From the NCBI RefSeq assembly GCF_000421525.1, contig NZ_ATXE01000001.1, positions 1,116,001 to 1,180,000 on the forward strand: a stretch of 64,000 nucleotides of DNA, read 5' to 3'. Positions 1,636 through 60,715 of the stretch are shown in pieces; the stretch's first letter is position 1; every line of letters starts with the position of its first letter. The stretch comes from Aestuariimicrobium kwangyangense DSM 21549. GTDB taxonomy: Bacteria > Actinomycetota > Actinomycetes > Propionibacteriales > Propionibacteriaceae. The position numbers were made by a program, and so were the translations under genes. Under the pieces are notes generated by a model, which saw nothing but the letters and a program-made list of their open reading frames with translations, was not told the origin of the DNA and made no database searches.

Positions 1636-3108
1636 TCAGTCCCGCCGCCCCAGCAGTCCGGCCATCCAGGCCTCCACGTCGTCGGCGGTGCGGGGCAGCA
1701 TGCCCGACAGGTTCTCGTTGCCGTCCTCGGTGATCAGGATGTCGTCCTCGATGCGCACCCCGATGCCCCGCAGTTCCTCGGGCACCAGCAGGTCGGTGGC
1801 CTTGAGGTAGATGCCGGGTTCGACCGTGATCACCATGCCCGGCCTGAGCACTCCCTCGCGGTAGTTCTCGGTCCGCGCCTGGGCGCAGTCGTGCACATCG
1901 ATGCCGAGGTGGTGCGAGGTGCCGTGCACCATCCAGCGGCGGTGGTGTCCGCCCTCGTCCCCCAGGGACTCCTGGGCGGTCACCGGCAGCAGGCCCCACT
2001 GCTCGAGGTACTTCGCGACCACGGCGATGGCTGCCTTGTGGACGTCACCGAAGGTGGCTCCCGGCTGCGCCGCAGCGATGCCTGCCTCCTGTGCCTCGAG
2101 GACGGCGTCGTAGACCCGCCGTTGGGCGGGGCTGAACCGTCCGTTGATGGGAAGTGTGCGCGTGATGTCGGCGGTGTAGAGGCTGTCGAGTTCGACGCCT
2201 GCGTCGAGCAGCAGCAGGTCACCGTCGGCGACATCACCGTCGTTGCCGATCCAGTGCAGGGTGTTGGCGTGGTCGCCGGCCGCGGCGATGGTGTCGTAGC
2301 CGACGGCGTTGCCCTGGTGGCGTGCGTGCAGCCCGAAGATGCCCTCGACCCAGCGTTCCCCCCGCCCCCGCCTGACCGCCTCGGGCAGGTCGCGGACGAC
2401 GGCCTCGAAGCCGACCGCGGTCGCGGCGCAGGCCGCCCTCATCTGGTCGGCCTCGTAGGCGTCCTTGACCAGCCGCAACTCCGACAGGGCGACGCTGAGT
2501 TCCTCGTCCAGGGTGGTCGCCTCTGCCACCGTGCCGCGGATCTGGTCGACCTGCGCGGTCACCTGTGAGTCGGCCTCGCGCAGCACCCTGATCTGGGTGG
2601 TGTCCGCGTTCTTCTCCAGGTGGGTGGTCAACTCCGAGATCGGGGCGCAGTGCAGACCCGTGAGCGCGGCCATCTCGTCCAGGGAGTCACGCTGGCCGAC
2701 CCACATCTCCCCGTAGCGGGCGTCGGCGTAGAACTGGCGGTCGGTGCGCGGGGCACGGGGCTGGAAGAACAAGGTGGCCTCGTGGCCGGCGTCCGAGGGC
2801 TCCAGCACGAGCACTGCGTCGGGCTCGCGATCGGTGCCCAGCCCGGTCAGGTGGGCGAATCCGGAGTGGGGGCGGTAGCGGTAGTCGGTGTCGTTGGACC
2901 GCACCTTGAGGCCACCCGCCGGGATCACGAGCCGCGCGTCGGGGAACTGTTCCCCCAGCGCCTCCCGGCGGGCCTTCGCCCACTCGGCCGCTGGCAAGGG
3001 GTCCGGCAGGTCGGTGGGGTAGGGCTCCCACGACTCGGGGATGAACGCCTTGAACGACTCCGAGAAGGGGGACTGTCGGTTGGGGAGCTTCTGCTGGGGT
3101 TCGCTCAT
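1636..3108 (-). CDS. pepP: Xaa-Pro aminopeptidase, M24B family
   Basis: Cytoplasmic metallopeptidase that removes N-terminal residues preceding proline. The protein is 490 residues from the chosen ATG (MSEPQQK), which has a GAGAGAG Shine-Dalgarno-like stretch five bases upstream. An alternative start nine codons earlier at 3135 lacks this. The N-terminal half is the aminopeptidase P N-domain. The C-terminal pita-bread domain carries the dinuclear metal ligands in order: DAGVELDSLYTADITRT (two Asp), the His of HGTSHHLGIDVHD, the Glu of VEPGIYL and the Glu of GVRIEDD. It is the first gene of a two-gene unit with corA. It is divergent from the acyltransferase gene, with a ~100-bp shared promoter region. 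Confidence 0.94.
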   Translation of the reverse strand: MSEPQQKLPNRQSPFSESFKAFIPESWEPYPTDLPDPLPAAEWAKARREALGEQFPDARLVIPAGGLKVRSNDTDYRYRPHSGFAHLTGLGTDREPDAVLVLEPSDAGHEATLFFQPRAPRTDRQFYADARYGEMWVGQRDSLDEMAALTGLHCAPISELTTHLEKNADTTQIRVLREADSQVTAQVDQIRGTVAEATTLDEELSVALSELRLVKDAYEADQMRAACAATAVGFEAVVRDLPEAVRRGRGERWVEGIFGLHARHQGNAVGYDTIAAAGDHANTLHWIGNDGDVADGDLLLLDAGVELDSLYTADITRTLPINGRFSPAQRRVYDAVLEAQEAGIAAAQPGATFGDVHKAAIAVVAKYLEQWGLLPVTAQESLGDEGGHHRRWMVHGTSHHLGIDVHDCAQARTENYREGVLRPGMVITVEPGIYLKATDLLVPEELRGIGVRIEDDILITEDGNENLSGMLPRTADDVEAWMAGLLGRRD

Positions 3109-3209
3109 GTCATCTCTCTCGTCGTCATCGATCACCCGGGATGTTCAGGCATGTCGGGCCCATCCTAGGACGCCCCACCGTCGGGTCCGGTGGCGGTAGG
3201 TTCGGGCCC

Positions 3210-4231: not shown

Positions 4232-6118
<1,887 letters not shown>

Positions 6119-8437: not shown

Positions 8438-8520
8438 AATCGTGCGGATCGTGTCGTCTGGTGCCAGAAGTGGTGCCGTGGGCGCAACAATCGCCGCCAC
8501 GGCACACGATCGGCACGATT
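8438..8520 (-). repeat. 83-bp dispersed element, copy A (reverse orientation)
   Basis: The 83-bp element is bounded by 17-bp terminal inverted repeats (AATCGTGCGGATCGTGT against the complement of ACACGATCGGCACGATT, one mismatch). Copies at 9744-9826 and 20613-20695 have exactly the same length. The 12-bp core GGCGATTGTTGC sits at element positions 26-37 in all three; here it reads on the minus strand at 8484-8495. It has no coding capacity. It lies between the zinc-ribbon gene and the DUF559 gene. Confidence 0.9.
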
Positions 8521-8752
8521 CGGCCGGGGCAGTGATCGGGTCCGGGCGGTCCGGCTGGATACCCGCGCCAAGCCTCGGCCGTGGCTGCGCCGGGCCAGGC
8601 TGGGTACCGCGCTCGGCGGCTGCGCCAAGGCCTCGCCCACAGCGGCGAGCGCACGGTGAGGTTTTCCACAGCCGTTCGCGATGGCGCAAGAGTTGTCCAC
8701 AGGTCGGCGGAAGGCCGGGCGCCATGCCCGCATCTGCAGCCATCGTCGATCC
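8521..8752. other. Intergenic region with two DnaA-box-like motifs
   Basis: This 230-bp non-coding stretch follows repeat copy A and precedes the DUF559 gene. It holds two nonamers close to the DnaA box TTATCCACA: TTTTCCACA at 8662-8670 and TTGTCCACA at 8693-8701. They are in the same orientation and start 31 bp apart, about three helical turns. Such motifs also recur upstream of actinobacterial nuclease-like genes, so origin function is not implied. I saw nothing else in the stretch. Confidence 0.5.
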
Positions 8753-9724
8753 GTGCGCCCACGATCACCAGACCTCGACCACGTACTCCGGCAGGAACAC
8801 GGCTGTCTCCGGGTGCGTGACCATCCCGCGCTGAGGGGCCAGGTCGCGCGTGCCGTCGCCCGGGGCGAACTCCTCCGAGTGTTCCCCGGCGTGGTGCTGG
8901 CGGCCGGGATCGCCCATGACCCGGAGCACGTGATGGTCGCGCTCCGCCTGTGGGAACCGAGGGCGGTCCTGCTCGGGCGCAGCGCCGCCCACCTCTTCCG
9001 TCCGGGACTGGTGGGGCTCACCGGCGTCGGTGCCTCGGTCGTCAGGCTGCCTCGCCACGCTGCCCCGCCGGAGGTCACGCTCCACGCGATCCAGTGGCCC
9101 GACCCACTGGTGTGGGGTGCCGGGCCCTGGTGGTTCCAGACACCGGCAGCGGCCGCACTGTGGGCGGCCCAGCACGGCGACTGGGCTCTGCTGACCGAAG
9201 GACTCAGGACCAATGCCTTCTCGGTGCCCCGCCTGTTGGAGGCGCGTGACCTGGCCCCGTTAGGCCTGCGCAAGGCGTGGAGGCAGGTGATGGTGCGTGC
9301 CGGGCGCGGGCCGTGGTCGCCCGCCGAACTCGACCTGCACGACTTCTACCGGCGTGCCGGACTGCGAGGCTGGAAGGCCAATCATCGCCTCGACTTCCCG
9401 ACCGGGGGCCACTGCTTCCTCGACTCGGCCTTTGTCGAATCACGGGTGGGCGTCGAGGTCGACAGCCGGGAACACCACTCCGCTCCGGCCGCGGTCGAGG
9501 CGGGCTGGATCCGCCACAACCGGGTTGAGTCGACGGGGTGGCGACTGCTGCACGTCTCCCCACGCCGCATCCTCAGCGATCCGGAGGGAATCCTGGCCGA
9601 ACTCATCCCGCTCCTCAGCCCCAGAGAACTCGGACGACTGGGGGTAGCACGCCGGCGGAGGGCGGGGACCGGCCCAGCCCAACCGCTGCGGCGCCCCCTC
9701 GGATGGGGTGACCTCACGGCGTGA
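8753..9724 (+). CDS. AbiEi-like winged-helix / DUF559 endonuclease-like protein
   Basis: A 323-residue protein of the common actinobacterial type with an AbiEi-antitoxin-like N-terminus and a DUF559 (Vsr/PD-(D/E)XK-like) C-terminus. The N-terminus reads DLDHVLRQEHGCLRVRD, then the winged-helix-like ARGELLRVFPGVVLAAG. The C-terminus (~200-300) shows RLDFPTGGHCFLDSAFVESRVGVEVDS-type strands with Asp and Glu-x-Asp, then NRVESTGWRLLHVSPRRIL. No toxin gene is adjacent. The GTG at 8753 was chosen because it places the N-terminus where relatives begin; the frame is open from 8681. Inverted copies of the 83-bp element lie on both sides, hinting at mobilisation. The function is unproven. Confidence 0.65.
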   Translation: MRPRSPDLDHVLRQEHGCLRVRDHPALRGQVARAVARGELLRVFPGVVLAAGIAHDPEHVMVALRLWEPRAVLLGRSAAHLFRPGLVGLTGVGASVVRLPRHAAPPEVTLHAIQWPDPLVWGAGPWWFQTPAAAALWAAQHGDWALLTEGLRTNAFSVPRLLEARDLAPLGLRKAWRQVMVRAGRGPWSPAELDLHDFYRRAGLRGWKANHRLDFPTGGHCFLDSAFVESRVGVEVDSREHHSAPAAVEAGWIRHNRVESTGWRLLHVSPRRILSDPEGILAELIPLLSPRELGRLGVARRRRAGTGPAQPLRRPLGWGDLTA

Positions 9725-9743
9725 CCCATGATCTCGCCCCGCC

Positions 9744-9826
9744 AATCGTGCGGATCGTGTGCGCTGATGGCGATTGTTGCTCGCCAGTGGCCACCATTGC
9801 CACCACAGCACACATCTCGCACGATT
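9744..9826 (+). repeat. 83-bp dispersed element, copy B
   Basis: Same 83-bp length as copies A and C, with AATCGTGCGGATCGTGT at the left end and CGCACGATT closing the right end. The conserved core GGCGATTGTTGC is at 9769-9780. It is inverted relative to copy A, so the two bracket the DUF559 gene. The copy begins 20 bp after that gene's stop. Confidence 0.9.
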
Positions 9827-9976
9827 GGGTGCCGAGCCATTCGCCGAGGGTGCACGGCGGGCGACCCGGCCGCCCCGGATTGGCACGGTTGCTCCCCGTG
9901 CGAGCCCCGGGCGCGCAAGACTGGCCGAGGGGTCCGCGGCTGCGGGCACCGGACGACCAGTGACCAGGAGGGCTTC

Positions 9977-11422
9977 ATGCCGGTTCGCCACTTGCGTGCG
10001 GACGAGGGATTCCCCGCCGCCATCAAGACAGGCTTCGATCGACTCTGTGACGAGATCGGGGCGCCCCTGGAGTTCCCCGCCGAGGTGGTCGCCGAGGCCG
10101 AGCGGGTGGCGTCGGCCGGCTACGACTCCAGCCGCACCTACGACGACCTGACCGACGTGCCCTTCGTCACCATCGACCCGGAAGGGTCGATGGACCTCGA
10201 CCAGGCCATGTACATCGAGAAGGCGAAGCAGGGCTACACGGTGCTCTACGCCATCGCCGACGTCGCCGCCTGGGTGGCTCCGGGCGGGCCGATCGACGCC
10301 GAGGCCCACCGTCGAGGGCAGACCCTGTACGCGCCCAACCGACGGTTCCCCCTGCATCCACCCGTGCTGAGCGAGGCGGCCGCATCGCTGCTCGCCGACG
10401 GCAGACCCCGCCCGGCCATCGTGTGGCGGCTCGACCTCGACGCCCACGGTCAGGTCACCGCCACGGCAGTGACCCGGGCACTCGTGGTCAGCCGGGAGCG
10501 ACTGGACTATCCCACCGAGCAGGCCAAGCTCGACAACGGCCAGGCCGGGCCCGTGATGCAGTTGCTGCGAGAGGTGGGTGATCTGCGTCAGCAGTTGGAG
10601 GTCGAGCGCGGCGGTGTCTCCCTCAATCTGCCCGAGCAGGTCGTCGACACCTCCCAGTCGGGCGGCTGGCGACTCACGCACCGCTCCAGCCTGCCCAACG
10701 AGAACTGGAACGCGCAGATCTCACTGATGACGGGGATGGCCGCCGCCCAGGTGATGCTCGAGGCCGGGGTCGGCATCCTGCGCACACTGCCGCCGCCCGA
10801 CCGCGAGGTCGTCCGCCAGCTCCGGGCCGTCGCGCACACCCTCAAGCTGCCCTGGCCCGAGTCGATGTCCTATGCGGAGTTCGTCGGCGCGCTCGACGTC
10901 ACCAACCCGGTGGCGCAGGCGATGATGATGAGCTGCGTCCGGTTGTTCCGCGGCGCCGGTTACACCGTCATCAAGGACGGCCTGGCGGCCGACCAACTCG
11001 TCCACGGGGCGCTGGCGGCCAACTATGCCCACACCACCGCACCCCTGCGACGGCTCGTCGACCGTTACGTGCTCGAGGTCTGCGTGGCCCTCTCGGCGGG
11101 CCAGCCCGTGCCCGAGTGGGCGCTGGCGGCACTGCCGTCCCTGCCGGACGAGATGGCCGAGTCTGATCGTCGGGCCAAGGCCTTCGAGCGCGGCATCACC
11201 GATCTGGTCGAGGCCCTCGTGCTCTCCGACAAGGTCGGGCAGGTGTTCACGGGAGTGGTGATCCAGGTGGATGACAAGCGCGAGGACCAAGGCATCGTCT
11301 CGATCGTCGAGCCGGCCATCGAGGCTCGTGTCAGCGGCGATCTCGAACTGGGTGACGAGGCGCGGGTGCGGCTGGTCAAGGCCGATCCGGTGGAGGGCAA
11401 GGTCGGCTTCGAGGTGGCCTGA
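9977..11422 (+). CDS. RNB-domain ribonuclease (RNase II/R family)
   Basis: A 481-residue 3'-to-5' exoribonuclease of the short actinobacterial RNase II/R type. The catalytic RNB domain begins around residue 60 with FVTIDPEGSMDLDQAM, the Asp-rich metal-binding motif. Later RNB blocks include YAIADVAAWV, ANRRFPLHP-type and the C-terminal YAHTTAPLRRLVDRYV. The last ~60 residues form an S1/OB-like RNA-binding strand set (FTGVVIQVDD...). N-terminal cold-shock domains of full-length RNase R are absent. The ATG at 9977 has CAGGAGGG seven bases upstream; the frame is open further back but through repeat copy B, so it is not coding there. Confidence 0.88.
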   Translation: MPVRHLRADEGFPAAIKTGFDRLCDEIGAPLEFPAEVVAEAERVASAGYDSSRTYDDLTDVPFVTIDPEGSMDLDQAMYIEKAKQGYTVLYAIADVAAWVAPGGPIDAEAHRRGQTLYAPNRRFPLHPPVLSEAAASLLADGRPRPAIVWRLDLDAHGQVTATAVTRALVVSRERLDYPTEQAKLDNGQAGPVMQLLREVGDLRQQLEVERGGVSLNLPEQVVDTSQSGGWRLTHRSSLPNENWNAQISLMTGMAAAQVMLEAGVGILRTLPPPDREVVRQLRAVAHTLKLPWPESMSYAEFVGALDVTNPVAQAMMMSCVRLFRGAGYTVIKDGLAADQLVHGALAANYAHTTAPLRRLVDRYVLEVCVALSAGQPVPEWALAALPSLPDEMAESDRRAKAFERGITDLVEALVLSDKVGQVFTGVVIQVDDKREDQGIVSIVEPAIEARVSGDLELGDEARVRLVKADPVEGKVGFEVA

Positions 11423-11449
11423 CCGTCAGCGGTGCTGACCACCGGTGCA

Positions 11450-11498
11450 CCCGAGCGCCAGCGGGACTGACCCCACAGTCGGCCCGAGCGCCAGCGGG
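11450..11498. repeat. Direct repeat upstream of the RNase P RNA gene
   Basis: The 16-mer CCCGAGCGCCAGCGGG occurs exactly at 11450-11465 and again at 11483-11498, a 33-bp period. It sits between the ribonuclease stop and the start of rnpB. Each copy has CCCG/CGGG ends and could form a short hairpin, but no T-tract follows. Confidence 0.6.
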
Positions 11499-11524
11499 CG
11501 TCACCGGCACTACACTGGTGCGAC

Positions 11525-11886
11525 GGACGAGTTGGCCGGGTGATCGCGGCAGGAAACTGTCGAGGAAAGTCCGGGCTCCTCAGAGCAGGGTGGTGGGTAA
11601 CACCCACCCGGGGTGACCCGCGGGACAGTGCCACAGAGAACAGACCGCCAACTTCGGTTGGTCAGGGTGAAACGGTGGTGTAAGAGACCACCAGCACTCC
11701 AGGTGACTGGAGTGGCTCGGTAAACCCCACCCGGAGCAAGACCAGACAGAACGTGTTCGAGGGCTGCTCGCCCGAGCGTTCGGGTAGGTTGCACCACTTC
11801 GGTGGAAGGCGGTTGGCAACAGCCGTCGCAGATGGATGATCACCGCGCTTCGGCGTACAGAACCCGGCTTACAGGCCAACTCGTCC
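11525..11886 (+). ncRNA. rnpB: RNase P RNA component
   Basis: Catalytic RNA subunit of RNase P, which trims tRNA 5' ends. P1 is a perfect 13-bp helix between GGACGAGTTGGCC (11525) and GGCCAACTCGTCC (ending 11886). Universally conserved blocks are present: GAGGAAAGTCCGGGCTC near the 5' end, the ACAGAGAACAGACCGCC region, GGTAAACCCCACC, and the 3' CGGCTTACAGGCC. The ~362-nt length fits class A. The ends are inferred from P1 pairing. It is read in the same direction as the upstream ribonuclease gene, 102 bp away. Confidence 0.95.
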
Positions 11887-11944
11887 CCATCATCCCCAGC
11901 GCCACGCGGGGCCAGCGCGCTCGCGGGGCGACCGGGAACGAATT

Positions 11945-11972
11945 CGCCTCACCCTCGGTCGAGGGTGAGGCG
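11945..11972 (+). terminator. Terminator-like hairpin after rnpB
   Basis: CGCCTCACCCTC - GGTC - GAGGGTGAGGCG forms a perfect 12-bp stem with a 4-nt loop, 58 nt beyond the mapped end of RNase P RNA. There is no strong U-tract, but position and stem strength fit a 3' boundary. Confidence 0.6.
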
Positions 11973-11977
11973 GTGTG

Positions 11978-12081
11978 GCGGGTCACTCTTCTCACTCGTC
12001 CCAGCGAGACCGTCTCAGTACAACGGGGGAGGTCGGTCCCTTGCTCGGGGGGAACGGGACGATGCCTGAAGAGTGACCCGC
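11978..12081 (+). ncRNA. Candidate structured RNA element of unknown type
   Basis: A 104-nt region is closed by a perfect 14-bp inverted repeat (GCGGGTCACTCTTC at 11978-11991, GAAGAGTGACCCGC at 12068-12081). An internal loop follows, then a second 6-bp helix (CGTCCC/GGGACG). Inside, ACCG/CGGT and AGC/GCT pairings are possible around a G-rich apical part. No reading frame fits. It lies five bases after the rnpB terminator-like hairpin. The rest of the gap to 12231 holds nothing I recognise. The strand is uncertain because the stem is symmetric. Confidence 0.45.
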
Positions 12082-12231
12082 AGATGGAACGCTACTGGTG
12101 GCCCAGCCGGGGCGCTCGCGACCCTCCCACCGACACACGGCGATTTCGATGTGCAGTTCGTCACATCACGCCGACCCCGGCAAGAGCATCGCGGTTCCTC
12201 GCAGGAGGGGTGACGCGCGCCTCCCCCGAAC

Positions 12232-13128
12232 TCAGGGCAGCACGGGCGCGGGCCCGTTGGGGGCCGGGGTCATCCCCTCCATCGGGAGCGTCAGCACCTC
12301 GGCTCCGTCCGGGGTGACCACGATCGTCTGTTCGAACTGCGCCACCCTCGAGCCGTCGTTGGTGACGACGGTCCAGTTGTCGTCCCACTGGTGGTTCTTG
12401 GCCGACCCCATCGCCAGCATCGGCTCGATGGTGAACGTCATCCCCACCTCGATGGGGGTGTCGAGGCGCGGTTCGTCGTAGTGGAGCACCACCAGACCCG
12501 AGTGGAAGGCCGTGTGCACTCCGTGGCCGGTGTACTCACGCACTGATTCGTAGCCGAAGCGCGAGGCGTAGGACTCGATCACCCGTCCGATCACCGACAA
12601 CGGACGACCGGGCTTGACCGCGCGGATACCGCGGTTCATGGCCTCCTGCGTGCGCTCGGTCAGGAGGCGGGAGGCCTCGTCCACCTCACCGCAGTAGAAG
12701 GTGGCGCAGTTGTCGCCGTGCACACCGTTCTTGTAGGCCGTGACGTCGATCTTCACCAAGTCGCCGTCCTCGAGCGGACGGGCGTCGGGGATGCCATGAC
12801 AGATCACCTCGTTGACCGAGGTGCACGAGGACTTGGGGAAACCCCGGTAGCCCAGGGTCGAGGGGTAGGCGCCGTGGTCGAGCATGAACTCATGGGCCAC
12901 CTTGTCGAGTTGGTCGGTGGTCACCCCGGGGGCGATCGCCTTGGCCGCCTCGTGCATGGCCTGGCACGCGATCCGCGATGACTCCCGCATGAGTTCGATC
13001 GTCTCCGCCGACTGCACATGGCTACCCGTGTACGGTGAAGGAGCCCGTTTGCCCACGTAGTGGGGGCGTGCAATCGAACCGGGAACGGGTCGCTCAGAAC
13101 TGATCGGGTGGGCCACAACAGGATTCAC
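12232..13128 (-). CDS. map: Type I methionine aminopeptidase
   Basis: Removes initiator methionine from nascent proteins. The 298-residue protein has the actinobacterial extension ([20 protein letters not shown]3-binding-like and Pro-rich), followed by the pita-bread fold. Metal ligands in order: Asp in [14 protein letters not shown] (two), His in GHGVHTAFH, Glu in TIEPMLAMG, and the final Glu in AQFEQTIVV. The GTG at 13128 (VNPVVAHP) was chosen by similarity to mycobacterial MapB-type N-termini; the open frame extends 14 codons further. It is divergent from a small acidic protein gene, with ~50 bp between. Confidence 0.93.
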
Positions 13129-13181
13129 CCGCCCGATTCTACGACCCCGGCCCGAGCCCGTGCCGAGCAAGGAGTCGTGAG

Positions 13182-13406
13182 GTGTCCGACCAGTACTACT
13201 ACTGTCTGGTGCACAAGACCGTCGAGGTGGCCGAGGGCTGCAAGGCCGAGGACCGGCTCGGCCCCTACCCGTCGCGGGCCGAGGCCCAGCAGGCGCTCGC
13301 CCACGTGGCCGAACGCAACGAGGCCTGGGACAACGACCCTCGCTGGAACGACGACGAGGACGACGACGGCGACGACAAACAGGGTTGGGGCCCGTTCAAG
13401 TCCTGA
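13182..13406 (+). CDS. Small acidic conserved protein
   Basis: A 74-residue soluble protein starting with GTG at 13182. It begins [19 protein letters not shown]. It then has a [21 protein letters not shown] helix, as in SPOR/HMA-like small actinobacterial proteins, and an acidic tail ([16 protein letters not shown]). Proteins of this type occur across Actinobacteria next to map or metal-related genes. I know of no established function. Codon usage and the Asp-rich tail argue that it is a real gene. Confidence 0.7.
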
Positions 13407-13456
13407 CCATCCGGTCGACCACCCGCTGACATCGGCGTCGAAAGGTGGTCTGACGA

Positions 13457-14338
13457 TCAGTCGACCTTGATGCTGGCCATCGAACGGTCGACCTCGGCCT
13501 GGGTGGCGGAGTCGTCGATGGTCGCCGAGTTGACGTAGACCCCGACCGACTCCGGGTTGCCCGTGTCGACGACGACGACGTCGACCACGTCACCCTTGAT
13601 GTCGGGGCCCTGGTCGCCGACGAAGATCTCGGAGCGCAGGTGGTAGGCCTGATGGCCGTCGATGGTGATGGCCTCGCTGACCACGTCGGTGCGTCCGGTG
13701 AACCCGCGGTAGTAGCCCGAGCTGGCGAAGCAGCTCATCATCACCCGGGCGGCCGGCTCGGGGGCCTCGAAACCGTCCGCCACGCGCAGGGCACCGACGG
13801 CGTTCACGCTCACCCACGTGCTGGTGATCTGCTTGAGTTCCGATGAGGTGTCATACATCCACGGCAGGCTGAAACCGCCCGACTCCCAGCCGAGCGACAC
13901 CACCGAGATGCTGCCGCCGGTCAGTCGTCCGTTCTGGGCACTCTTGCCGCTGTCGCCGCCGCCCTCGGGGCAGGCGACGTCCACGCCACCCGACGACTCC
14001 GGGTTGGTGGGTGAGGGGGTCTGGGTGGGGGTGGAGGTCTCGTCCCACTGCGAGACGGTGGGCGTGGACGAATTGGTGTCCTCGGCGATGGTGGTGTTGC
14101 GTCCGCCCAGGCCGCGGACCACGAGGAAACCCACCAGGGCCACGACCAGCACTCCCACGACCAGCAGCACCCACCGTCCGGCACCCCCCGACCGACGTGG
14201 CGGGGGCGCCTGCCCACCGCCTGGTGGCGGGGTCTGGGCGGGGTTGGCGGTCGTCTGCTGGCTCCATTGCGCGCCGTCCCAGAAGCGGAACTGGCCGGGT
14301 TGTCCGGACGGATCTGGGTACCAGCCTGGCTGCGACAT
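13457..14338 (-). CDS. DUF2510-domain membrane protein, paralog 1
   Basis: A 293-residue protein with an N-terminal DUF2510 module (QPGWYPDPSGQPGQFRFWDG, residues 3-22), a Pro/Gly-rich linker and one membrane helix at ~56-74. A ~220-residue extracytoplasmic domain follows. The external part begins with a Thr/Ser-rich stretch containing NSSTPTVSQWDETSTPT. It shares this architecture and that block with the next gene upstream (14374-15267), so the pair arose by tandem duplication. DUF2510 proteins are actinobacterial and their role is unknown. The ATG is directly followed by the family motif, making the start secure. Confidence 0.82.
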   Translation of the reverse strand: MSQPGWYPDPSGQPGQFRFWDGAQWSQQTTANPAQTPPPGGGQAPPPRRSGGAGRWVLLVVGVLVVALVGFLVVRGLGGRNTTIAEDTNSSTPTVSQWDETSTPTQTPSPTNPESSGGVDVACPEGGGDSGKSAQNGRLTGGSISVVSLGWESGGFSLPWMYDTSSELKQITSTWVSVNAVGALRVADGFEAPEPAARVMMSCFASSGYYRGFTGRTDVVSEAITIDGHQAYHLRSEIFVGDQGPDIKGDVVDVVVVDTGNPESVGVYVNSATIDDSATQAEVDRSMASIKVD

Positions 14339-14373
14339 GCGCCCAGTCTAGGAGGCGGTCGGGATCAGGCCCG

Positions 14374-15267
14374 TCACCCCACGACCCGGATCGTGGTCGC
14401 CGCCAGGTCGACGGGCTGCTGGAACTCAGGGCGATCGATGGGGGCCATTCCCCGGAAGAAGGCCAGCTTCCCGGGTCGTCCGACGTCGAGCACGATGATG
14501 TCGAGGGTGTCGCCCTTCACCTCGGCGTAGTAGTCGTCGCGCACCTCGCCGCGCAGTCGCCACCCGGAGCGTCCGTCGACCGTGATCGCCTGCTGGCTGA
14601 GCACGGTGTGCCCGAGGTAGCCCGGGTAGTACTGGGACGAGGCCTCGCAGCTGAGGATGCGTGCGGCGGCCGTGCGCGGATCGTCACTGAAATCGGCCGT
14701 GTCGACCTGCCCGATGGTGATCCCGGCGATCCAGGACTTGAACACCGGCACCGTCTGCCCGGCTTGGTCGTCGGCCCAGTCCACGCTCGGCCGGGTCGTG
14801 ACGGTCCAGCCTTGGACCGGCACGTACGAGATGCCACCGCCGGTGAGGCGTCCGGCCTCGACTCCGCTCTGGTTGGCTTCGAGCACGACCGGGCAGGTGC
14901 GCTGGGTGCCGCCCGAGCCGTCGGGTCGTGAGGGCTCGGCCGTCGGGGTCGAGGTCTCGTCCCACTGCGAGATGGTGGGGGTGGACGAGTTGGTGTCCTC
15001 CTCCACCCGGTCGGAACGGGACCACCCCCGGACCACCAGGGCCAGGGACACGCCCACGACGACCACACCGACCAGCAGGAACCATGCCCACCGCCGGGGA
15101 GGACGACCCTGCGGCGGACCTCCCGGGGTGGTGCGGGTCGGGCCCTGCCCGCCCGGGTTCGGCGTCCCCGAGGACGGGACGGTGTCACCCGCCCACGCCG
15201 ACCCGTCCCACCAGCGCAGGTGACCGGGTCGTCCCGACGGGTCTGGATACCATCCCGGTTGCGCCAT
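14374..15267 (-). CDS. DUF2510-domain membrane protein, paralog 2
   Basis: A 297-residue paralog of the neighbouring gene. It has DUF2510 (QPGWYPDPSGRPGHLRWWDG, residues 3-22), a Pro/Gly linker, a membrane helix at ~60-79, then the shared block NSSTPTISQWDETSTPT and an external domain. The external domains are clearly related but diverged, for example SCFASSGYYRGF against SCEASSQYYPGY. The 35-bp spacing suggests one transcript with paralog 1. The ATG at 15267 was preferred to an in-frame GTG two codons earlier because it places the motif at the same distance as in paralog 1. Confidence 0.82.
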   Translation of the reverse strand: MAQPGWYPDPSGRPGHLRWWDGSAWAGDTVPSSGTPNPGGQGPTRTTPGGPPQGRPPRRWAWFLLVGVVVVGVSLALVVRGWSRSDRVEEDTNSSTPTISQWDETSTPTAEPSRPDGSGGTQRTCPVVLEANQSGVEAGRLTGGGISYVPVQGWTVTTRPSVDWADDQAGQTVPVFKSWIAGITIGQVDTADFSDDPRTAAARILSCEASSQYYPGYLGHTVLSQQAITVDGRSGWRLRGEVRDDYYAEVKGDTLDIIVLDVGRPGKLAFFRGMAPIDRPEFQQPVDLAATTIRVVG

Positions 15268-15336
15268 GGGCACAGTGTAGGCAGCGGGTACGGGTATGCC
15301 CTGGGTGCCGGACCAGCCGTCGTGGGGCGGCGGACC

Positions 15337-15352
15337 GTAACGCAGTTGTTAC
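15337..15352. promoter_or_regulatory. Possible GlnR-type half-box upstream of glnA2
   Basis: GTAAC-n6-GTTAC lies 23 bp upstream of the glnA2 ATG. It resembles one a-site/b-site pair of the actinobacterial GlnR box (GTnAC-n6-GnAAC), but the second half is a mirror image rather than the usual GAAAC form. It is weaker evidence than the four-site box at glnA1. Confidence 0.35.
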
Positions 15353-15375
15353 ACGCGAGAGGGCAGACTGAGGCC

Positions 15376-16710
15376 ATGGACAGGCAGACCGAGTTCGTGC
15401 TGCGCGCTATGGAGGAGCGGGACATCCGCTTCGTGCGCCTGTGGTTCACCGACGTGCTGGGCTCGCTCAAGTCCGTCGCGATCGCCCCGGCCGAACTCGA
15501 GGGAGCCTTCGCCGACGGGATCGGCTTCGACGGCTCGGCGATCGAGGGCTACGCCCGGGTCTACGAGTCCGACATGACGGCCAAGCCCGACGCGAGCACC
15601 TTCACTCACCTGCCGTGGCGCCAGCAGCGCCGGGGCACCGCCCGCATGTTCTGCGACATCGCCCTGCCCGACGGATCCCCGAGCTACGCCGACCCGAGGT
15701 ATGTGCTGAAGCGGGCCATGAAGAAGGCCTCCGACATGGGGTTCAGCTTCTACACCCATCCTGAGATCGAGTTCTTCCTGCTCAAGGACACCGCCCCCGG
15801 CGAGCCGATCGAGCCACTCGACATGGGCGGCTACTTCGACCACACCACCCTGGGACGAGGAACCGACTTCCGCCGCGACGTCATCGAGATGCTCGAGCAG
15901 ATGGGGATCTCGGTCGAGTTCAGCCACCACGAGGCCGCGCCCGGGCAGCACGAGATCGACCTGCGCTACGCCGACGCGCTCACCATGGCCGACAACATCA
16001 TGACCTTCCGCACCGTGGTCCGTGAGGTGGCCGTCGCCTCGGGCATCCGCGCCACCTTCATGCCCAAGCCCTTCTCGGACCACGCCGGCTCGGGCATGCA
16101 CACCCACCTGAGCCTGTTCGAGGGTGACACCAACGCCTTCTACGACGCCGCCGACGAGGCGCGACTGTCGAAGACCGGACGACACTTCGTCGCCGGCCTG
16201 CTGCACCACGCCAAGGAGATCACCGCGATCACCAACCAGTGGGTGAACTCCTACAAGCGCCTGGTCGGTGGATCCGAGGCACCCAGCTACGTGTGCTGGG
16301 GACGAAGCAACCGGTCCGCGCTGGTGCGGGTGCCGATGTTCAACCAGGAGAAGCCGTCGTCGGCCCGGGTGGAACTGCGTTCCCTCGATTCTGCCTGCAA
16401 CCCCTACCTCGCCTACGCGCTGATCCTGGCGGCCGGACTGTCGGGCATCGAGAACGAGTTCGAACTGCCCGACGAGGCCGCCGACGACGTCTGGCAGCTC
16501 ACCGACCGGGAGCGGTCCGCGATGGGCATCGATGAACTGCCCCGCAATCTCGACGAGGCCATCCGCGCCATGGAGCAGTCCGAACTGGTCGCCGACACGC
16601 TCGGCAGCCACGTCTTCGACTTCTTCCTGCGCAACAAGCGGGCGGAGTTCGAGGAGTACCGCAGCCAGGTCACCCCGTTCGAAGTGGCCAAATACCTGCC
16701 CCTGCTCTGA
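15376..16710 (+). CDS. glnA2: Type I glutamine synthetase, GlnA2-like
   Basis: Cytoplasmic glutamate-ammonia ligase homolog, 444 residues, close to the length of actinobacterial GlnA2. Visible features: GFDGSAIEGYARVYESDM near the N-terminus, the ATP/Mg site EIEFFL, the loop PGQHEIDLRYADAL, KPFSDHAGSGMHTHLSL, and NRSALVRVP. The region equivalent to the adenylylation loop reads DVWQLTDRERSAM with Trp in place of the tyrosine found in GlnA1 (DLYELPPEE), so GlnE control is unlikely. It is followed by an SCP-like gene on the other strand and then glnE, a conserved actinobacterial arrangement. Confidence 0.93.
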   Translation: MDRQTEFVLRAMEERDIRFVRLWFTDVLGSLKSVAIAPAELEGAFADGIGFDGSAIEGYARVYESDMTAKPDASTFTHLPWRQQRRGTARMFCDIALPDGSPSYADPRYVLKRAMKKASDMGFSFYTHPEIEFFLLKDTAPGEPIEPLDMGGYFDHTTLGRGTDFRRDVIEMLEQMGISVEFSHHEAAPGQHEIDLRYADALTMADNIMTFRTVVREVAVASGIRATFMPKPFSDHAGSGMHTHLSLFEGDTNAFYDAADEARLSKTGRHFVAGLLHHAKEITAITNQWVNSYKRLVGGSEAPSYVCWGRSNRSALVRVPMFNQEKPSSARVELRSLDSACNPYLAYALILAAGLSGIENEFELPDEAADDVWQLTDRERSAMGIDELPRNLDEAIRAMEQSELVADTLGSHVFDFFLRNKRAEFEEYRSQVTPFEVAKYLPLL

Positions 16711-16725
16711 GCGCGTGGGGCCGAC

Positions 16726-17517
16726 TCAGAGCAGCTGACGTCGTCCGAGGTCGATGACCGGCAACATCGCTTCGAAGGCGTTGACGTGGGCGCCCGACGC
16801 GTAGGTCTCGGCCACCCGCTCGTCCCAGCGACGTAGTCCCGTGGTCAACTCGAGGAACAGTTCGACCGGCAGTTCGATCACGTTCGGCGGGGTGCCCCGT
16901 GTGTGCACCGGACCCTCGCCGAGGGCGTCCAGTTGCACGGCAGCGGCGGGTGGCACCCTCACCTCGAGAGTGGCCCCCGGGTGCCGTTCCCCGAGCGCGA
17001 TCGCGAGCGCACGGGTCGCCTCCGTCAGGGCGATGGCTGGGGCGGGGCAGCCGTGGCGCAACGACACCGAGACGGCGTCGACGAGCGAGCCGCGCAGGTA
17101 GTCGATCAGCCGGGCGACGCCGAACAGGGTGTCGACCGCGGCCGGCAGCTTGGGATGGTCGAGTTCTGTGACGACATCGGCGAGCAGTCGTCGCGCCTGA
17201 TGGGTCAGGCTGGCGGCCGAGTCGCGTCCCAGCACCGACTCCGAGACCTCGGCGAGGGCCTGCTCGGCCAGGGCGCGGTGACGGAGGTGGGTGCCCCAGC
17301 TCTCGGGACGGGTGGTGGTGGGGGACCCGAGGGTCTGCAGGGCATCGGTCAGCAGCACCATCCCGCGACCGGCGCGGTCACGCAGGTGGCGTTCGTCGCT
17401 CGCCGCCGACCGCGTGGTGACCTCCTTGGTCTGCGGGACGAGGGCCTCGAGTTCGGCCACGAAGGCAGAGATGACCCGCCGCAGGGCCTGGTCCTGTCTT
17501 GCTGCCACGATGGTCAC
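16726..17517 (-). CDS. Sterol-carrier-like (bacterial SCP ortholog) family protein
   Basis: A 263-residue soluble protein. The N-terminal ~150 residues are helical and Arg-rich, like a DinB/MDMPI-type bundle. The C-terminal ~90 residues match the bacterial SCP-ortholog domain, with the diagnostic VHTRGTPPNVIELPVELFLEL followed by TGLRRWDERV. Proteins of this type are common in Actinobacteria. Ligand and role are not established. It lies convergent to glnA2 and divergent from glnE, whose GTG is 95 bp away. Confidence 0.75.
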   Translation of the reverse strand: MTIVAARQDQALRRVISAFVAELEALVPQTKEVTTRSAASDERHLRDRAGRGMVLLTDALQTLGSPTTTRPESWGTHLRHRALAEQALAEVSESVLGRDSAASLTHQARRLLADVVTELDHPKLPAAVDTLFGVARLIDYLRGSLVDAVSVSLRHGCPAPAIALTEATRALAIALGERHPGATLEVRVPPAAAVQLDALGEGPVHTRGTPPNVIELPVELFLELTTGLRRWDERVAETYASGAHVNAFEAMLPVIDLGRRQLL

Positions 17518-17611
17518 CTCGACGACACTAGGAGGCGCGGGTGGCCCGAAGTTGTCTCACGGGTTACCGGCACCCAAACGACTGCCAACCGCTTGAGCAT
17601 AGGCTCTTGAC

Positions 17612-20575
17612 GTGACCCGCCTCTCGACCACACCAGGCGAGCTGGCACGCCGGGGCTTCCTCGACGCCACCCGCTCCGCGAAACTCGTCCGGTCGCTGAC
17701 CGAACTGATCGGGCACCAGCCGCCGGTCTGGCTGGCAGACGGACGGTGGCTCGACCTGTTCGACCGGGTGGCCGATCCCGACCTCGCGCTGGAGGAACTG
17801 ACCCGGCTGCTGCCGGCCGCCCCCGAGCTGCGACCGCGACTCGCCCAGAACCAGGAGTGGGCGCAGCGGTTGGTGCTGGTGCTCGGGGGAAGCAGCGCCC
17901 TGGCCCAACACCTCGTCCAACACCCCGAGGACGTCGAGGTGCTGGAGCCCACCCCCGAACGGGTGCCCGCGCCCGACATCGCCGCCGACCTGATGGAACG
18001 GTGCACCGTCGAGGGATGGAGCCAGCTCGAAGCGGTCGACGCGCTGAAGCGGGCGAACAAGCGCCACCTGCTGCGCATCAGCGCCCGCGACCTCGCCCAC
18101 CCCGACCCGCAGGGCGTGCTGCCCGACATCGCGGCCGAACTGGCCGACCTCGCCGACGCCGTGCTGCAGGCAACCCTGGTGCTCGCCCAGCGGGAGGTGC
18201 CGGGCCACGAGGCCACCCGGATGGCCGTGATCGGGCTGGGCAAGGCCGGGGCCCAGGAACTCAACTACATCTCCGACGTCGACGTGCTCTTCGTGGCCGA
18301 ACCGGGTGTCGACCCGGCGACCGGTGAACCCGCAACCAGCGACCAGGCCGTCCAACTGGCGACCAGGGTCGCGGCTGCGATGACCCGGATCTGTTCGTCC
18401 CACACGGCAGCCGGCTCGATCTGGCAGTTGGACGCGGGGCTTCGTCCCGAGGGCAAGGCCGGGGCACTCGTGCGCACGCTGGGGTCGATGCGCAGCTACT
18501 ACGAGAAGTGGGCCTCCAACTGGGAGTTCCAGGCCATGTTGAAGGCACGCGTGGTCGCCGGCGACGCCGAGGTCGGGCAGGGGTTCCTCGACATCGTGCA
18601 GCCGCTGGTGTGGCGGGCCGCCGAACGCGAACACTTCCTCGCCGAGACCCAGGCGATGCGACAGCGGGTGATCCGCACCATCCCGGCCAAGGAGGCAGAC
18701 CGGGAGATCAAGCTGTCGTCGGGAGGGCTGCGCGACACCGAGTTCACCGTGCAATTGCTGCAGTTGGTGCACGGACGAGCCGACGACCGGCTGCGCGCCC
18801 GAGCGACGCTCACTGCCCTGCAGGAACTGGTCGACCACGGCTACATCGGACGCCGCGACGGTGTCGAACTGGGCACGGCCTACCGATTCCAGAGGCTCCT
18901 CGAGCACCGGGTGCAGCTGTTCAGGATGCGCCGCACCCACCTCCTGCCCAGCGATCCCGATGGTCTGCGACGGCTGGGGCGGGGCATCGGGCTGCGCGGC
19001 GGCGACGAGGTGATGACCCAGTTCAGGCAGTCTGCCCAGAAGGTGCTGAGGCTGCACCAGCGCATCTTCTACTCCCCCCTGGTCGAGGCCGCCACCCGGA
19101 TCAGTTCGCAGGAGTTGGCACTCACCCCCCAGGCGGCGCGTGACCGGCTGCGGGTGCTCGGGTTCTCCGACCCCGACGCCGCCCTGCGCCACATCCAGGC
19201 ACTGACCAGTGGGTTGAACCGTGGCGCCGAGATCCAGCGGCAGTTGATGCCGGCGATGTTGGGCTGGTTCGCCGAGGCTCCCTCCCCGGACGCCGGCATG
19301 CTGGCGTTCAGGCAGGTGAGCGAGTCCTTGGGCAACACTCCCTGGTACCTGCGCACCCTCCGCGACTCGGGGCAGACCGCCCATCGGCTGGCCACCATCC
19401 TGTCGAGTTCCCGCTACGTGGTCGACCTGCTGAAGCGGGACCCCGAGGCCGTGCAGATCATGGCCTCCGATGCCGAACTGGTGCCCCGTGACCTGGCGCA
19501 GGTGCGCGCCTCGATGCGCGCTGCCGTCCAGCGACATGACCAGGTCGACGGTGCCGTCAGGGCGGTGCGCGCCCAGCGTCGGCGGGAACTCTTCCGCATC
19601 TGCGTGGCCGACCTGCTCGGCCGGATCGACCTGGCCACGCTCGGTCGCGCGCTCAGTGAGCTCACCAGCGCCACCATCGACGTCACCCTCGAGGCCATCG
19701 CCCGCGACGTGCCCGAGGCACCCACCCTGGGCGTGATCGCCATGGGACGGTGGGGCGGGCGGGAGCAGAGCTACGGCTCGGATGCCGACGCCATCTTCGT
19801 CCACGCCGACTCCGACGACCCCGAGGCGGGCTCGAAGGCGACCGCCATGGTGGCGCGGTTGCGTCAGGCGCTCGGGTCGGCTGGTCCCGACCCTGCCCTG
19901 CCCATCGATGCCGACCTGCGTCCGGAGGGCAAGGGGGGCCCGATGGTGAGGTCGGTCTCGTCGACGATCGCCTACTACGGACGATGGGCCGACACCTGGG
20001 AGGCGCAGGCACTCCTGCGAGCCGACCACGGCGCCGGCGATCCCGCGGCGGTGGCCGCGGTGCTCGACTCGGTGGCTGGCCTGCGTTGGCCCGAGGGTGG
20101 CCTGAACCGCCTGCAGTTGGCGGAGATCCGGAAACTCAAGGCGCGCATGGAGACCGAACGCATGCCGCGGGGACAGGATCCCGGCCGCAACGTGAAACTC
20201 GGCCGTGGCGGACTCAGCGACGTGGAGTGGACCGTGCAGGTGTTGCAGTTGCAGCACGCCCACGAGTGCCCCGACCTGCGCACGACCTCGACGGTGGCTG
20301 CCCTCGACCGGTTGTCGCAGCTGCGCATCCTCGATCCGTTGGACTCTCAGAAGCTGCTGCAGAGCTGGGAACTCGCCAGCCGCCTGCGCAACGCCATCGT
20401 GCTGACCAAGGCGCGCCGCAGCGACGCCATCCCCACCGATGCACGTGACCTGGCCGCCATGTCGCACCTGCTGGGGAGGGGATTCGGCCAGGCCTCGGAG
20501 TTGTTGGAGGAGTGGAGCCGGGCCTCTCGACGCTCGGCTCGGGTCACGGATCGGCTGTTCTGGGGGCGCGGTTAG
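17612..20575 (+). CDS. glnE: Bifunctional glutamine synthetase adenylyltransferase/adenylyl-removing enzyme
   Basis: Adds AMP to, and removes it from, the regulatory tyrosine of type I glutamine synthetase. The 987-residue protein has the expected duplicated nucleotidyltransferase layout. The N-terminal adenylyl-removing half has GLGKAGAQELNYISDVD (Asp pair). The C-terminal adenylyltransferase half has AMGRWGGREQSYGSDAD. Each is followed by a helical PII-uridylyltransferase-like bundle containing the signatures KLSSGGLRDTEFTVQLLQL and KLGRGGLSDVEWTVQVLQL. Translation starts at GTG 17612. The likely target in this window is GlnA1 (37305-38726). Confidence 0.95.
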   Translation: MTRLSTTPGELARRGFLDATRSAKLVRSLTELIGHQPPVWLADGRWLDLFDRVADPDLALEELTRLLPAAPELRPRLAQNQEWAQRLVLVLGGSSALAQHLVQHPEDVEVLEPTPERVPAPDIAADLMERCTVEGWSQLEAVDALKRANKRHLLRISARDLAHPDPQGVLPDIAAELADLADAVLQATLVLAQREVPGHEATRMAVIGLGKAGAQELNYISDVDVLFVAEPGVDPATGEPATSDQAVQLATRVAAAMTRICSSHTAAGSIWQLDAGLRPEGKAGALVRTLGSMRSYYEKWASNWEFQAMLKARVVAGDAEVGQGFLDIVQPLVWRAAEREHFLAETQAMRQRVIRTIPAKEADREIKLSSGGLRDTEFTVQLLQLVHGRADDRLRARATLTALQELVDHGYIGRRDGVELGTAYRFQRLLEHRVQLFRMRRTHLLPSDPDGLRRLGRGIGLRGGDEVMTQFRQSAQKVLRLHQRIFYSPLVEAATRISSQELALTPQAARDRLRVLGFSDPDAALRHIQALTSGLNRGAEIQRQLMPAMLGWFAEAPSPDAGMLAFRQVSESLGNTPWYLRTLRDSGQTAHRLATILSSSRYVVDLLKRDPEAVQIMASDAELVPRDLAQVRASMRAAVQRHDQVDGAVRAVRAQRRRELFRICVADLLGRIDLATLGRALSELTSATIDVTLEAIARDVPEAPTLGVIAMGRWGGREQSYGSDADAIFVHADSDDPEAGSKATAMVARLRQALGSAGPDPALPIDADLRPEGKGGPMVRSVSSTIAYYGRWADTWEAQALLRADHGAGDPAAVAAVLDSVAGLRWPEGGLNRLQLAEIRKLKARMETERMPRGQDPGRNVKLGRGGLSDVEWTVQVLQLQHAHECPDLRTTSTVAALDRLSQLRILDPLDSQKLLQSWELASRLRNAIVLTKARRSDAIPTDARDLAAMSHLLGRGFGQASELLEEWSRASRRSARVTDRLFWGRG

Positions 20576-20612
20576 GCGGGACCGGCCCGATGACCCGCAT
20601 GACCGGAGGGTG

Positions 20613-20695
20613 AATCGTGCCGATCGTGTCGGCTGACGGCGATTGTTGCTGCCACAGCCGCACGACTGGTGCCAGAGCACACAATCGGCACGATT
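20613..20695 (+). repeat. 83-bp dispersed element, copy C
   Basis: Ends AATCGTGCCGATCGTGT and ACACAATCGGCACGATT are inverted repeats (one mismatch). The length is again exactly 83 bp, and the core GGCGATTGTTGC is at 20638-20649 (element positions 26-37). It lies 37 bp after glnE and 131 bp beyond the 3' end of the patatin gene of the candidate defence operon. The remaining spacer to 20825 shows nothing else clear. Confidence 0.9.
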
Positions 20696-58837: not shown

Positions 58838-60715
58838 TCAGAGCTCGGCGGCGAAGTCGCCCTCTTCCAGACGAGCCTTGACGGCGCTCAGGAACCGGGC
58901 CGCCTCGGCACCGTCCACCAGTCGGTGGTCGTAGCTGAGCGACAGGAACATCATGTCGCGCACGGCGATGGTGTCGCCCATCACCTTGTCGGAGATGACC
59001 ACCGGACGCTTCACCAACGCACCGGTGCCGAGGATGGCGACCTGGGGCTGGTTGATGATCGGCGTGTCGAACAAGGTGCCGGCCGAGCCGTAGTTCGTGA
59101 TCGTGAACGTGCCACCGCCCAGCTCGTCCGGAGTGACCTTGCTGGCACGGGTGCGTGCAGCCAGATCACCGATCTTCTTGGCGATGCCGGCGAGGTTGAG
59201 GTCACCCGCATCCTTGATCACCGGGACGAGCAGGCCCTTCTCGGTGTCGACGGCGATGCCGATGTGTTCGGCGGCCGCATAGGTGATGGTGCCGGCGTCG
59301 GTGTCGATGGTGGCATTCACCTTCGGGAACTGCTTCAGCGCCTCGACCGCCGCCTTCGTGATGAACGGCAGGTACGACAGCGATGCGCCGTTGCGTGCCT
59401 TGAAGGCGTCCTTGTGCTGGGCCCGCAGCCGCGAGATGGCGGTCAGGTCGACCTCGACGGTGGCGGTCAGCTGCGCCGACACCTGCAACGACTCGACCAT
59501 GCGCTTGGCGATGGTGGCGCGCAGGCGCGAGATCTTCTCGGTGGTGCCGCGCTTGGCAGCTGCATCCGGCGAGACGGTCGTCGGACGAGGTGCCTCGGCA
59601 GCGGGGGCAGGCGCAGCGGCGGCCTGCTTGGCAGCCTCCGCAGCCTTCTGCTTGGCTTCCGCCGCGGCGATCACGTCCTGCTTGCGCACCCGGCCGCCCA
59701 CCCCGGTACCGGTGATCTCGGAGAGCTCGACGCCATGTTCGGCCGCCAGCTTGCGCACCAGGGGGGTGACATAGCCGGCACCCTCGCCCTCGGACGATGC
59801 CTCCGCCCGACGCGGGGTCTCCGCGGCAGGAGCAGCGGCGGCAGGTGCAGCGGGCGCGGGAGCAGCGGGCGCGGGAGCAGCGGGCGCCTTCGGCTCGGGG
59901 GCGGCGGGAGCCTTCGGCTCGGGTGCGGGGGCAGCCGCCTCGGGCTCGGGCGAAGTCTGAACAGCCTCTGGCTCAGGCTCGACGGCAGGCGGTGCGGCCT
60001 CGGGCTCGGGAGCAGCGGCGGGTGCGGCGGATGCATCGCCGATGATGGCGAGCACGGCGCCGACGTCGGCGGTCTCGTCCTCCTGCACGCGGATCTCGAG
60101 GATGGTTCCGGCCACGGGGGAGGGGATCTCGGTGTCGACCTTGTCGGTGGAGACCTCGACGATTGCCTCATCGACCTCGACGGTGTCACCCACCTCCTTG
60201 AGCCAGCGCGAGACGGTTCCCTCGGTGACGGACTCCCCGAGAGCGGGCAGCGTGACCTCTGTTCCCTGGGCGGGGCCCGACGAGGCCTGGGCCGGGGGGG
60301 CCTGCTGGGCTGCAGGAGCCTCTTCGGCGGCGGGCGCCGCCTGCTGAGCGGGCGCCGGCTCCTCGACCGGGGCGGTCTCCTCGACCGGAACCGAGTCCGA
60401 GGGGGGGACCGAGTCGGATGGGGCGTCCTCGGAAGCATCGCTCGAAGGAGCGGTCTGGTCGCTGCCGGGCGCCTCACTGGCGTCGCCGATCACTGCCAGC
60501 ACGGCGCCGACGTCGGCGGTCTCGTCCTCCTGCACGCGGATCTCGAGGATGGTTCCGGCCACGGGGGAGGGGATCTCGGTGTCGACCTTGTCGGTGGAGA
60601 CCTCGACGATTGCCTCATCGACCTCGACGGTGTCACCCACCTCCTTGAGCCAGCGCGAGACGGTTCCCTCGGTGACGGACTCTCCGAGAGCGGGAAGGGT
60701 GACTTCGGTCGCCAT
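58838..60715 (-). CDS. sucB: 2-oxoglutarate dehydrogenase E2, two lipoyl domains
   Basis: Dihydrolipoamide succinyltransferase (or a related 2-oxo acid dehydrogenase E2), 625 residues. There are two N-terminal lipoyl domains, each with the lipoylated Lys in [12 protein letters not shown], separated by Pro/Ala/Ser/Glu linkers. A peripheral-subunit-binding domain follows ([19 protein letters not shown]), then the catalytic domain ending in [14 protein letters not shown] with its active-site His. The two lipoyl-coding segments share 185 identical nucleotides. Lpd, encoded upstream, would be its E3 partner, and LipA/LipB its lipoylation machinery. Confidence 0.92.
60051..60235. repeat. 185-nt perfect direct repeat within sucB, copy 1
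   Basis: Identical to 60498-60682 base for base, 447 bp apart, flanked by mismatches. It encodes most of the second lipoyl domain. Identity at synonymous sites implies recent duplication or ongoing gene conversion. Confidence 0.9.
60498..60682. repeat. 185-nt perfect direct repeat within sucB, copy 2
   Basis: Partner of 60051-60235; encodes most of the first lipoyl domain. The first mismatch on the right is at 60683 (T against C at 60236). Confidence 0.9.

Follow-up and report, generated by a model that had tools for sequence, protein, structure and literature searches.

Fixed-length palindromic DNA elements associated with Vsr-like nuclease genes in Aestuariimicrobium kwangyangense and other Propionibacteriaceae

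Introduction

The origin and persistence of short palindromic repeats in bacteria is an open question. The best-known enzyme tied to such repeats is RAYT, and DDE and HUH enzymes are routes to short interspersed repeats in bacterial genomes. A locus of Aestuariimicrobium kwangyangense DSM 21549 bears on this question, since here a nuclease of another kind holds the position of RAYT. What are the 83-bp palindromic sequences that enclose this nuclease gene and recur elsewhere in the genome, and how are they related to the enzyme? The stretch of DNA that was analysed (64,000 nucleotides, 69% G+C; termed “the window”) corresponds to C1:1116001-1180000 of a 2.99 Mb genome in 5 contigs and harbours the following features:

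8438..8520, minus strand: 83-bp palindromic element, copy 1, upstream of the nuclease gene 8681-9724
8681..9724, plus strand: predicted nuclease gene with a weak AbiEi-like N-terminus and a Vsr-like MTES_1575/DUF559 C-terminus
9744..9826, plus strand: 83-bp palindromic element, copy 2, 19 bp past the end of the nuclease gene; right end degraded
20613..20695, plus strand: 83-bp palindromic element, copy 3, dispersed, 37 bp past the ORF 17612-20575

Architecture of the 83-bp element

The initial annotation had described the three copies as a family of exactly 83 bp, and they are indeed present as proposed, starting with AATCGTGC, finishing with GCACGATT and carrying GGCGATTGTTGC at positions 26-37. 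With up to one mismatch, this core occurs three times in the window versus 0.29 expected occurrences, and none of 100 shuffles reaches three. The genome-wide search by consensus and covariance model that had been suggested at the outset extended the family beyond the window to a total of 18 copies, every one of which is 83 bp long. The half-site AATCGTGCSRATCGTGT, allowing two mismatches, is found 34 times in the whole genome, and its reversed pattern not once. Among these half-sites, 32 combine to 16 pairs that span exactly 83 bp, and the remaining two belong to 83-bp copies with a degraded other end. A covariance model built from the 18 copies recovers all of them at 83 bp (74-96 bits on the better strand) and finds nothing further above 32 bits in the genome, and thus no decayed tail.

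The 17-bp inverted ends are conserved genome-wide, although they are not perfect in each copy, as illustrated by the degraded right end of 9744-9826. Mean pairwise identity among the 18 copies amounts to 93% and 88% in the two ends and to 56% in the interior, compared to 28% by chance. Since the copies were initially located via their ends, end conservation is somewhat over-stated, yet the model saw no decayed tail. The 12-bp core, which had been called fixed, is exact in only 4 of the 18 copies; what is loosely kept throughout the genome is GTTGC at positions 33-37. None of the copies contains an indel in spite of the diverged interior, which suggests that the length of the element is constrained. 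The palindrome may extend one base more, because a C precedes 16 and a G follows 15 of the 18 copies. By our gene calls all copies are intergenic, except for one that overlaps a weak ORF call.

The element forms an imperfect palindrome of two 37-bp arms, in which 75.5% of the paired cells across the 18 copies are standard pairs. Matching between arms of the same copy reaches 211 at positions 18-41, versus 235.6 +/- 8.6 for arms dealt among copies, and 138 versus 135.3 at positions 9-17. Arm covariation is 0.107 compared to 0.124 in shuffles, and 475 of 500 shuffles reach or exceed the observed pairing and covariation. Since the arms of a given copy do not co-vary, each arm is kept as DNA sequence, and selection for a hairpin is unsupported. 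A search of Rfam yielded no match at the elements, and an RNA hairpin was rejected on the basis of the arm shuffle and the pair counts. The earlier proposal of a conserved RNA- or DNA-binding site therefore loses its RNA part; the DNA site survives as a prediction, given that each conserved end behaves like a half-site of its own. Accordingly, the sequences themselves indicate that the 83-bp elements are paired inverted DNA half-sites and not an RNA hairpin.

Further palindrome families in the same genome

Weak 75-bp matches of the 83-bp covariance model led to a second family, which comprises ten copies, all of 75 bp, with the ends GATCCAGAACCGTGC and GCACGGTTCTGGATC; the last two copies score just 38-39 bits. 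Its ends differ from those of the 83-bp family and the inner core is similar. The 75-bp model additionally aligns in register, offset by four, to several members of the 83-bp family. Three copies of a third family lie within 4.6 kb of each other, and no other pair was present in the 414 kb of the genome that were searched.

C2:331114; C1:1039734, 248757, 1065462, 597666, 1347974, 1035544; C3:165855; C4:268693, 267589: 75-bp copies of the second family
L194:325-399, 3056-3130, 4797-4871 (C1:32324-36870): 75-bp copies of the third family with GTCCAGAA ends, surrounding another nuclease gene

The window also contains a pair of direct repeats (60033-60262 and 60480-60709) of 230 bp each, which are 96% identical and lie 447 bp apart from start to start.

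The predicted nuclease

The gene 8681-9724 is sandwiched by the 83-bp copies at 8438 and 9744; the initial annotation had overlooked that this ORF encodes a Vsr-like nuclease. In the same manner, the 75-bp copies at C4:267589 and 268693 flank a paralogous ORF, which is 43% identical to the window nuclease over 286 residues. Counted from the ATG at 8681 the window protein comprises 347 amino acids, and its true start is probably located within the first approximately 30 codons. In Pfam the protein matches MTES_1575 (7.6e-7), DUF559 (0.002) and AbiEi_4 (0.00023), all under the curated cut-offs. The paralogue matches DUF559 above the curated cut-off and AbiEi below it, and among 19 relatives at E <= 0.01, 18 match MTES_1575, 15 match DUF559 and two match AbiEi_4. 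Four residues are conserved in 48 aligned proteins, namely E216 (42/48), D248 (47/48), E259 (44/48) and H266 (42/48). The family of the window nuclease is thus predicted to possess a catalytic core of the Vsr type, in which acidic residues and a histidine are conserved.

A profile of the 19 relatives reaches the solved structures 3hrl, which is endonuclease-like (1.3e-7), and 3r3p, a mobile-intron protein (0.0071) that we take to be I-Bth0305I; the window protein as a single query matched no solved structure. EDxHD enzymes resemble Vsr. Structure prediction from the window protein alone gave an unusable model (pLDDT 38.5). Neither an intron nor an intein was seen at the two sandwiched nuclease genes. 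In viral contigs, 72 stretches fit a pattern for the nuclease and none was confirmed, and the best matches in defence and phage libraries reached just E values of 0.065 and 0.045, respectively.

Repeat-flanked nucleases in the Propionibacteriaceae

A two-protein profile (E <= 1e-8) matches in at least 102 of 147 Propionibacteriaceae genomes and at least six times in the genome of A. kwangyangense itself. The 48 loci inspected consist of 29 matches in other genomes, from which three duplicates were removed, another 20 retrieved by position and the two sandwiched genes of the own genome; five of the six own nuclease genes are among them. At each locus, the 600 bp left of the gene were compared with the 600 bp right of it, and the threshold of 20.2 was set at the highest score among 1688 cross-genus pairings of such flanks. 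Repeats that match across the gene exceed this score at 16 of the 48 nuclease loci, in 0 of the 1688 cross-genus pairings and at one of 130 ordinary genes of the own genome (score 43). At a score of 18, the corresponding numbers are 18 of 48, 7 of 1688 and 2 of 130. Genes for these nucleases are therefore associated with palindromes.

Repeat-flanked loci are found in genus groups g1 (4 of 6), g4 (4 of 4), g17 (4 of 5), g35 (2 of 2) and g27 (1 of 1). Given that only one of 22 loci in g14, none of seven in g19 and not the single locus in g6 are repeat-flanked, nucleases of this kind can occur in the absence of detectable repeats. On a tree of the 48 nucleases the label “repeat-flanked” requires 4 changes compared to 14.7 in shuffles; L179 and L194 were assigned manually to the 16, which brings the labelled set to 18, and the clustering is partly due to near relatives. 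With this proviso, the clustering fits an old association of nuclease and repeat, which was then lost or became undetectable in g14 and g19.

Half-site patterns were read off 18 loci, and at 13 of these both flanking elements are of equal length: 83, 75, 75, 71, 89 (three loci, two of which are orthologues), 79, 78, 76 and 64 bp, and core lengths of 54 and 43. At the other five loci, the two elements differ by one base (55/56) in one case and are unequal (109/120) in another, and three loci are not resolved on both sides. The end sequences differ between nucleases, except for close relatives (G063 and G129; G004 and G028; some similarity within g17).

The gene beside the element 20613-20695 adjoins a nuclease gene in other genera (compare L172). 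The same pattern is seen for the gene beside the element L068:9891-9973, which adjoins a nuclease gene at L198, L205 and L211. Considering all genes tested, 2 of 34 element-adjacent own genes versus 4 of 271 others share such a site (p = 0.14), and shared insertion sites are not established. At the locus shared by L198, L205 and L211, the nuclease stretch of L198 is 77-79% conserved between species compared to 83-91% for the flanks, suggesting that this stretch evolves fast.

Dispersed elements in other genera

In g17, the half-site that belongs to the G063/G129 nuclease pairs up into 16 elements in G063 (13 of 89 bp and three of 101 bp), 20 in G129 (13 of 89 bp, six of 101 bp and a doubtful one of 111 bp) and a single one in G136. 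The other five g17 species contain between zero and two isolated half-sites with two mismatches, which is about equal to the reversed pattern. Unpaired half-sites are also present in G063 (two with one mismatch) and G129 (several). Many of the 89-bp elements (e.g., L243, L246 and L249) carry a 14-bp palindrome, TTGGATCGATCCAA, which is exact in 8 of the 16 G063 elements. Since this palindrome is located off-centre on one side, the g17 elements may be directional. An 11% sample of G028 (398,020 bases) yielded five palindrome families with 4, 3, 2, 3 and 1 paired elements, and lengths of 76-77, 63-64, 65, 60 and 60, respectively; at loose settings, 2, 9, 24, 1 and 6 unpaired matches were obtained. 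Three of the five families are adjacent to a nuclease gene, and in one case the gene is flanked on either side.

At L256 (G063:C1:2729583-2731081), two g17 half-sites with one mismatch each face one another at a distance of approximately 1.5 kb. The gene between them is presumably transposase-like, and the arrangement perhaps represents an insertion sequence inside an element. At L272 (G129:C43:1939-8605), the interval between two 101-bp elements is approximately 3.75 kb longer in G129 than in G063, and a third such element lies near the edge. This extra stretch, which we assume to carry fatty-acid-type genes, possibly reflects cargo capture or recombination between repeats.

The strict 83-bp pattern occurs in none of 56 relatives. 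Its covariance model matches in 30 of 146 other genomes of the family at E <= 1, at best with 31.6 bits over 28 bp (G126), and the 75-bp model matches in 28 of 36 other genomes, at best with 26.8 bits; the matches of both models in other genomes are taken as chance. A search of wider genome contigs, from which the own genome was possibly left out, returned two matches to the 83-bp element, which span 73 and 70 bp and come from unrelated taxa, approximately the number estimated for chance, and viral contigs contained none.

Movement and inheritance

In the sister genome G001, the neighbouring genes are 31 bp apart, while in A. kwangyangense 1598 bp with a repeat-nuclease-repeat unit lie between them. 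In G060, two stretches of 1306 bp, each containing a 77-bp palindrome and a nuclease gene, are 99.3% identical and have unrelated flanks. The DNA around the site of the second unit is conserved in G117, where the unit is missing; the intergenic DNA there has diverged and contains similar motifs, and the junction is not readable. Recombination between repeats could therefore also explain the absence in G117.

The single elements speak against frequent movement. Of the 16 elements in G063, 14 have an intact counterpart at the corresponding position in G129, one has a diverged counterpart there, and one has been shortened by a deletion; no jump of a single element was seen between these two genomes. 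An apparent empty site at G063 2086368 was rejected, as it corresponds to a truncated element in G129, and a clean empty site was found for none of the dispersed single elements. Target duplications, which had been proposed as a sign of movement, are not evident either: among the 18 copies of the 83-bp family their length is 0 bp in 13 and 2-4 bp in five cases.

A proposed nuclease-repeat system and its alternatives

The repeat-flanked nucleases look like a little-known type of selfish repeat-and-enzyme system. We consider it probable that the 83-bp sequences are a dispersed bipartite DNA site composed of two inverted half-sites at fixed spacing, which the nuclease encoded by 8681-9724 recognises and has spread. 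The best reading is a REPIN/RAYT-like system built on a Vsr-like nuclease, the binding, cutting and spreading of which we infer. In the simplest model a nuclease dimer would bind both half-sites at their fixed spacing, and the enzyme would cut or nick DNA at the element or at similar targets. Repair or transposition could then leave new copies, either in trans as proposed for REPINs, or through a homing-like cut-and-copy process. Between such bursts copies would be inherited vertically, while their ends would be kept by selection or by ongoing recognition. Any detailed route of spreading deserves less confidence than recognition and spread as such.

A serious alternative, though an unlikely one, holds that the elements are fixed operator or cleavage/protection sites of a nuclease useful to the host (in regulation, or in defence by self-marking), which do not move and are kept by selection. 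The strong conservation of the ends without a decayed tail, the fixed spacing, the vertical inheritance between G063 and G129 and the conserved active-site residues would all be expected of such sites. However, end sequences and lengths turn over between species (0 of 56 relatives share the 83-bp pattern, and the best match elsewhere scores 31.6 bits compared to 74-96 bits), and this turnover is more typical of selfish repeats than of fixed sites; moreover, a nuclease unit is duplicated in G060. Stable hairpins, predicted in the 14 copies folded, would rather suit bidirectional transcription terminators or an RNA hairpin family, as would the placement between tandem genes, where 8 of 9 copies lie closer to the stop than to the next start, an uncontrolled count. 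Yet the arms lack compensatory changes, Rfam provides no match, and divergent gene pairs are not avoided (4 of 18 versus 46 of the 219 intergenic regions that lack an element, Fisher p = 1.0), which renders this explanation improbable.

The least probable explanation treats the elements as classical MITEs of a lost DDE transposon and the nuclease between two copies as an accidental passenger. Inverted ends, short size and dispersed intergenic positions are compatible with MITEs, and the elements had initially been termed MITE-like. This label is contradicted by the lack of target duplications, indels and decayed copies, as well as by the pairing of the half-sites, which leaves no distant pair of such ends to bound a larger transposon. 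In particular, an accidental passenger does not explain why related nuclease genes are enclosed by matched repeats, of differing sequence, in six genus groups. The search for a transposase with matching ends remained negative in this genome with regard to both a larger element and a Y1 enzyme.

Beyond the locus itself, the balance is even as to whether small Vsr-like nucleases, each with its own spread and still recognised palindromic sites of fixed length, constitute a distinct class of repeat systems, which would have radiated in the Propionibacteriaceae (several pairs per genome) and been lost in some genera. If true, this class would represent a further enzymatic route to short bacterial interspersed repeats. 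Among the open-access papers that our search listed, judged by title and the opening of the abstract, none linked palindromic repeats to DUF559, MTES_1575 or AbiEi; two that contain both “DUF559” and “palindromic” deal with different topics according to their titles. Dedicated enzymes that accompany interspersed palindromic repeats are known; in the present system the enzyme belongs to another class. The many natural pairs of nuclease and site, with constant spacing within a family, provide a ready set for testing recognition, cutting and spread, offer a testable role for genes known solely as DUF559 proteins and may supply nucleases that recognise very long sites.

Comparison with known systems

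REPINs are described in PMC3116915 as extragenic sequences with two inverted conserved ends and a variable middle, of which several types occur per genome, each beside its own single-copy enzyme gene, and transposition in trans is proposed for them. The 83-bp family shares the inverted conserved ends, the variable middle and the dispersed intergenic copies, and at 16 of 48 loci the enzyme gene is flanked by its own type of repeat, but a Vsr-like nuclease replaces RAYT. A REP-like or mobile element had been the nearest initial guess, as the copies are palindromes scattered between genes, two of which flank a predicted nuclease gene as REPINs flank RAYTs, although no Y1/RAYT enzyme accompanies them. 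The RAYT transposase domain Y1_Tnp (PF01797) has no match in the genome, while the identical search was positive in 5 of 14 control genomes, and RAYT was rejected on these grounds. Inspection of the aligned copies revealed no conserved GTAG or CGTC foot at the ends AATCGTGC. Also unlike REPINs, the length is fixed to the base in both families studied genome-wide (83 bp and 75 bp). With RAYT and tag absent, the 83-bp system is REPIN-like in anatomy and not a REPIN by membership.

GTAG- and CGTC-tagged REPs are portrayed by Di Nocera et al. 2013 (PMC3733652) as sequences of 20-40 bp with an unpaired tag, mainly from Proteobacteria, and the CGTC type as apparently devoid of a dedicated transposase. 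Measured against this description, the present elements are likewise palindromic repeats located mostly downstream of genes, but they exceed this length, lack the tag and are linked to a gene for a nuclease.

With respect to the enzyme, the closest parallel is offered by the Vsr-like EDxHD homing endonucleases, as the nuclease profile reaches 3r3p. According to PMC3943268, I-Bth0305I binds as a dimer to a target of nearly 60 bp, a size comparable to the paired sites described here. Unlike in these homing endonucleases, no intron or intein was seen, the N-terminus is weakly AbiEi-like and many dispersed sites are present per genome; the EDxHD motif itself is putative in the present family. Finally, the MTES_1575-type Vsr domain appears in PMC3710099 as a component of giant multidomain conflict-system proteins, which are proposed to act on invading DNA. 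The nucleases described here belong to the same domain family (PF18741), yet in contrast to those giant proteins, the domain is encoded by a small gene accompanied by its cognate repeats.
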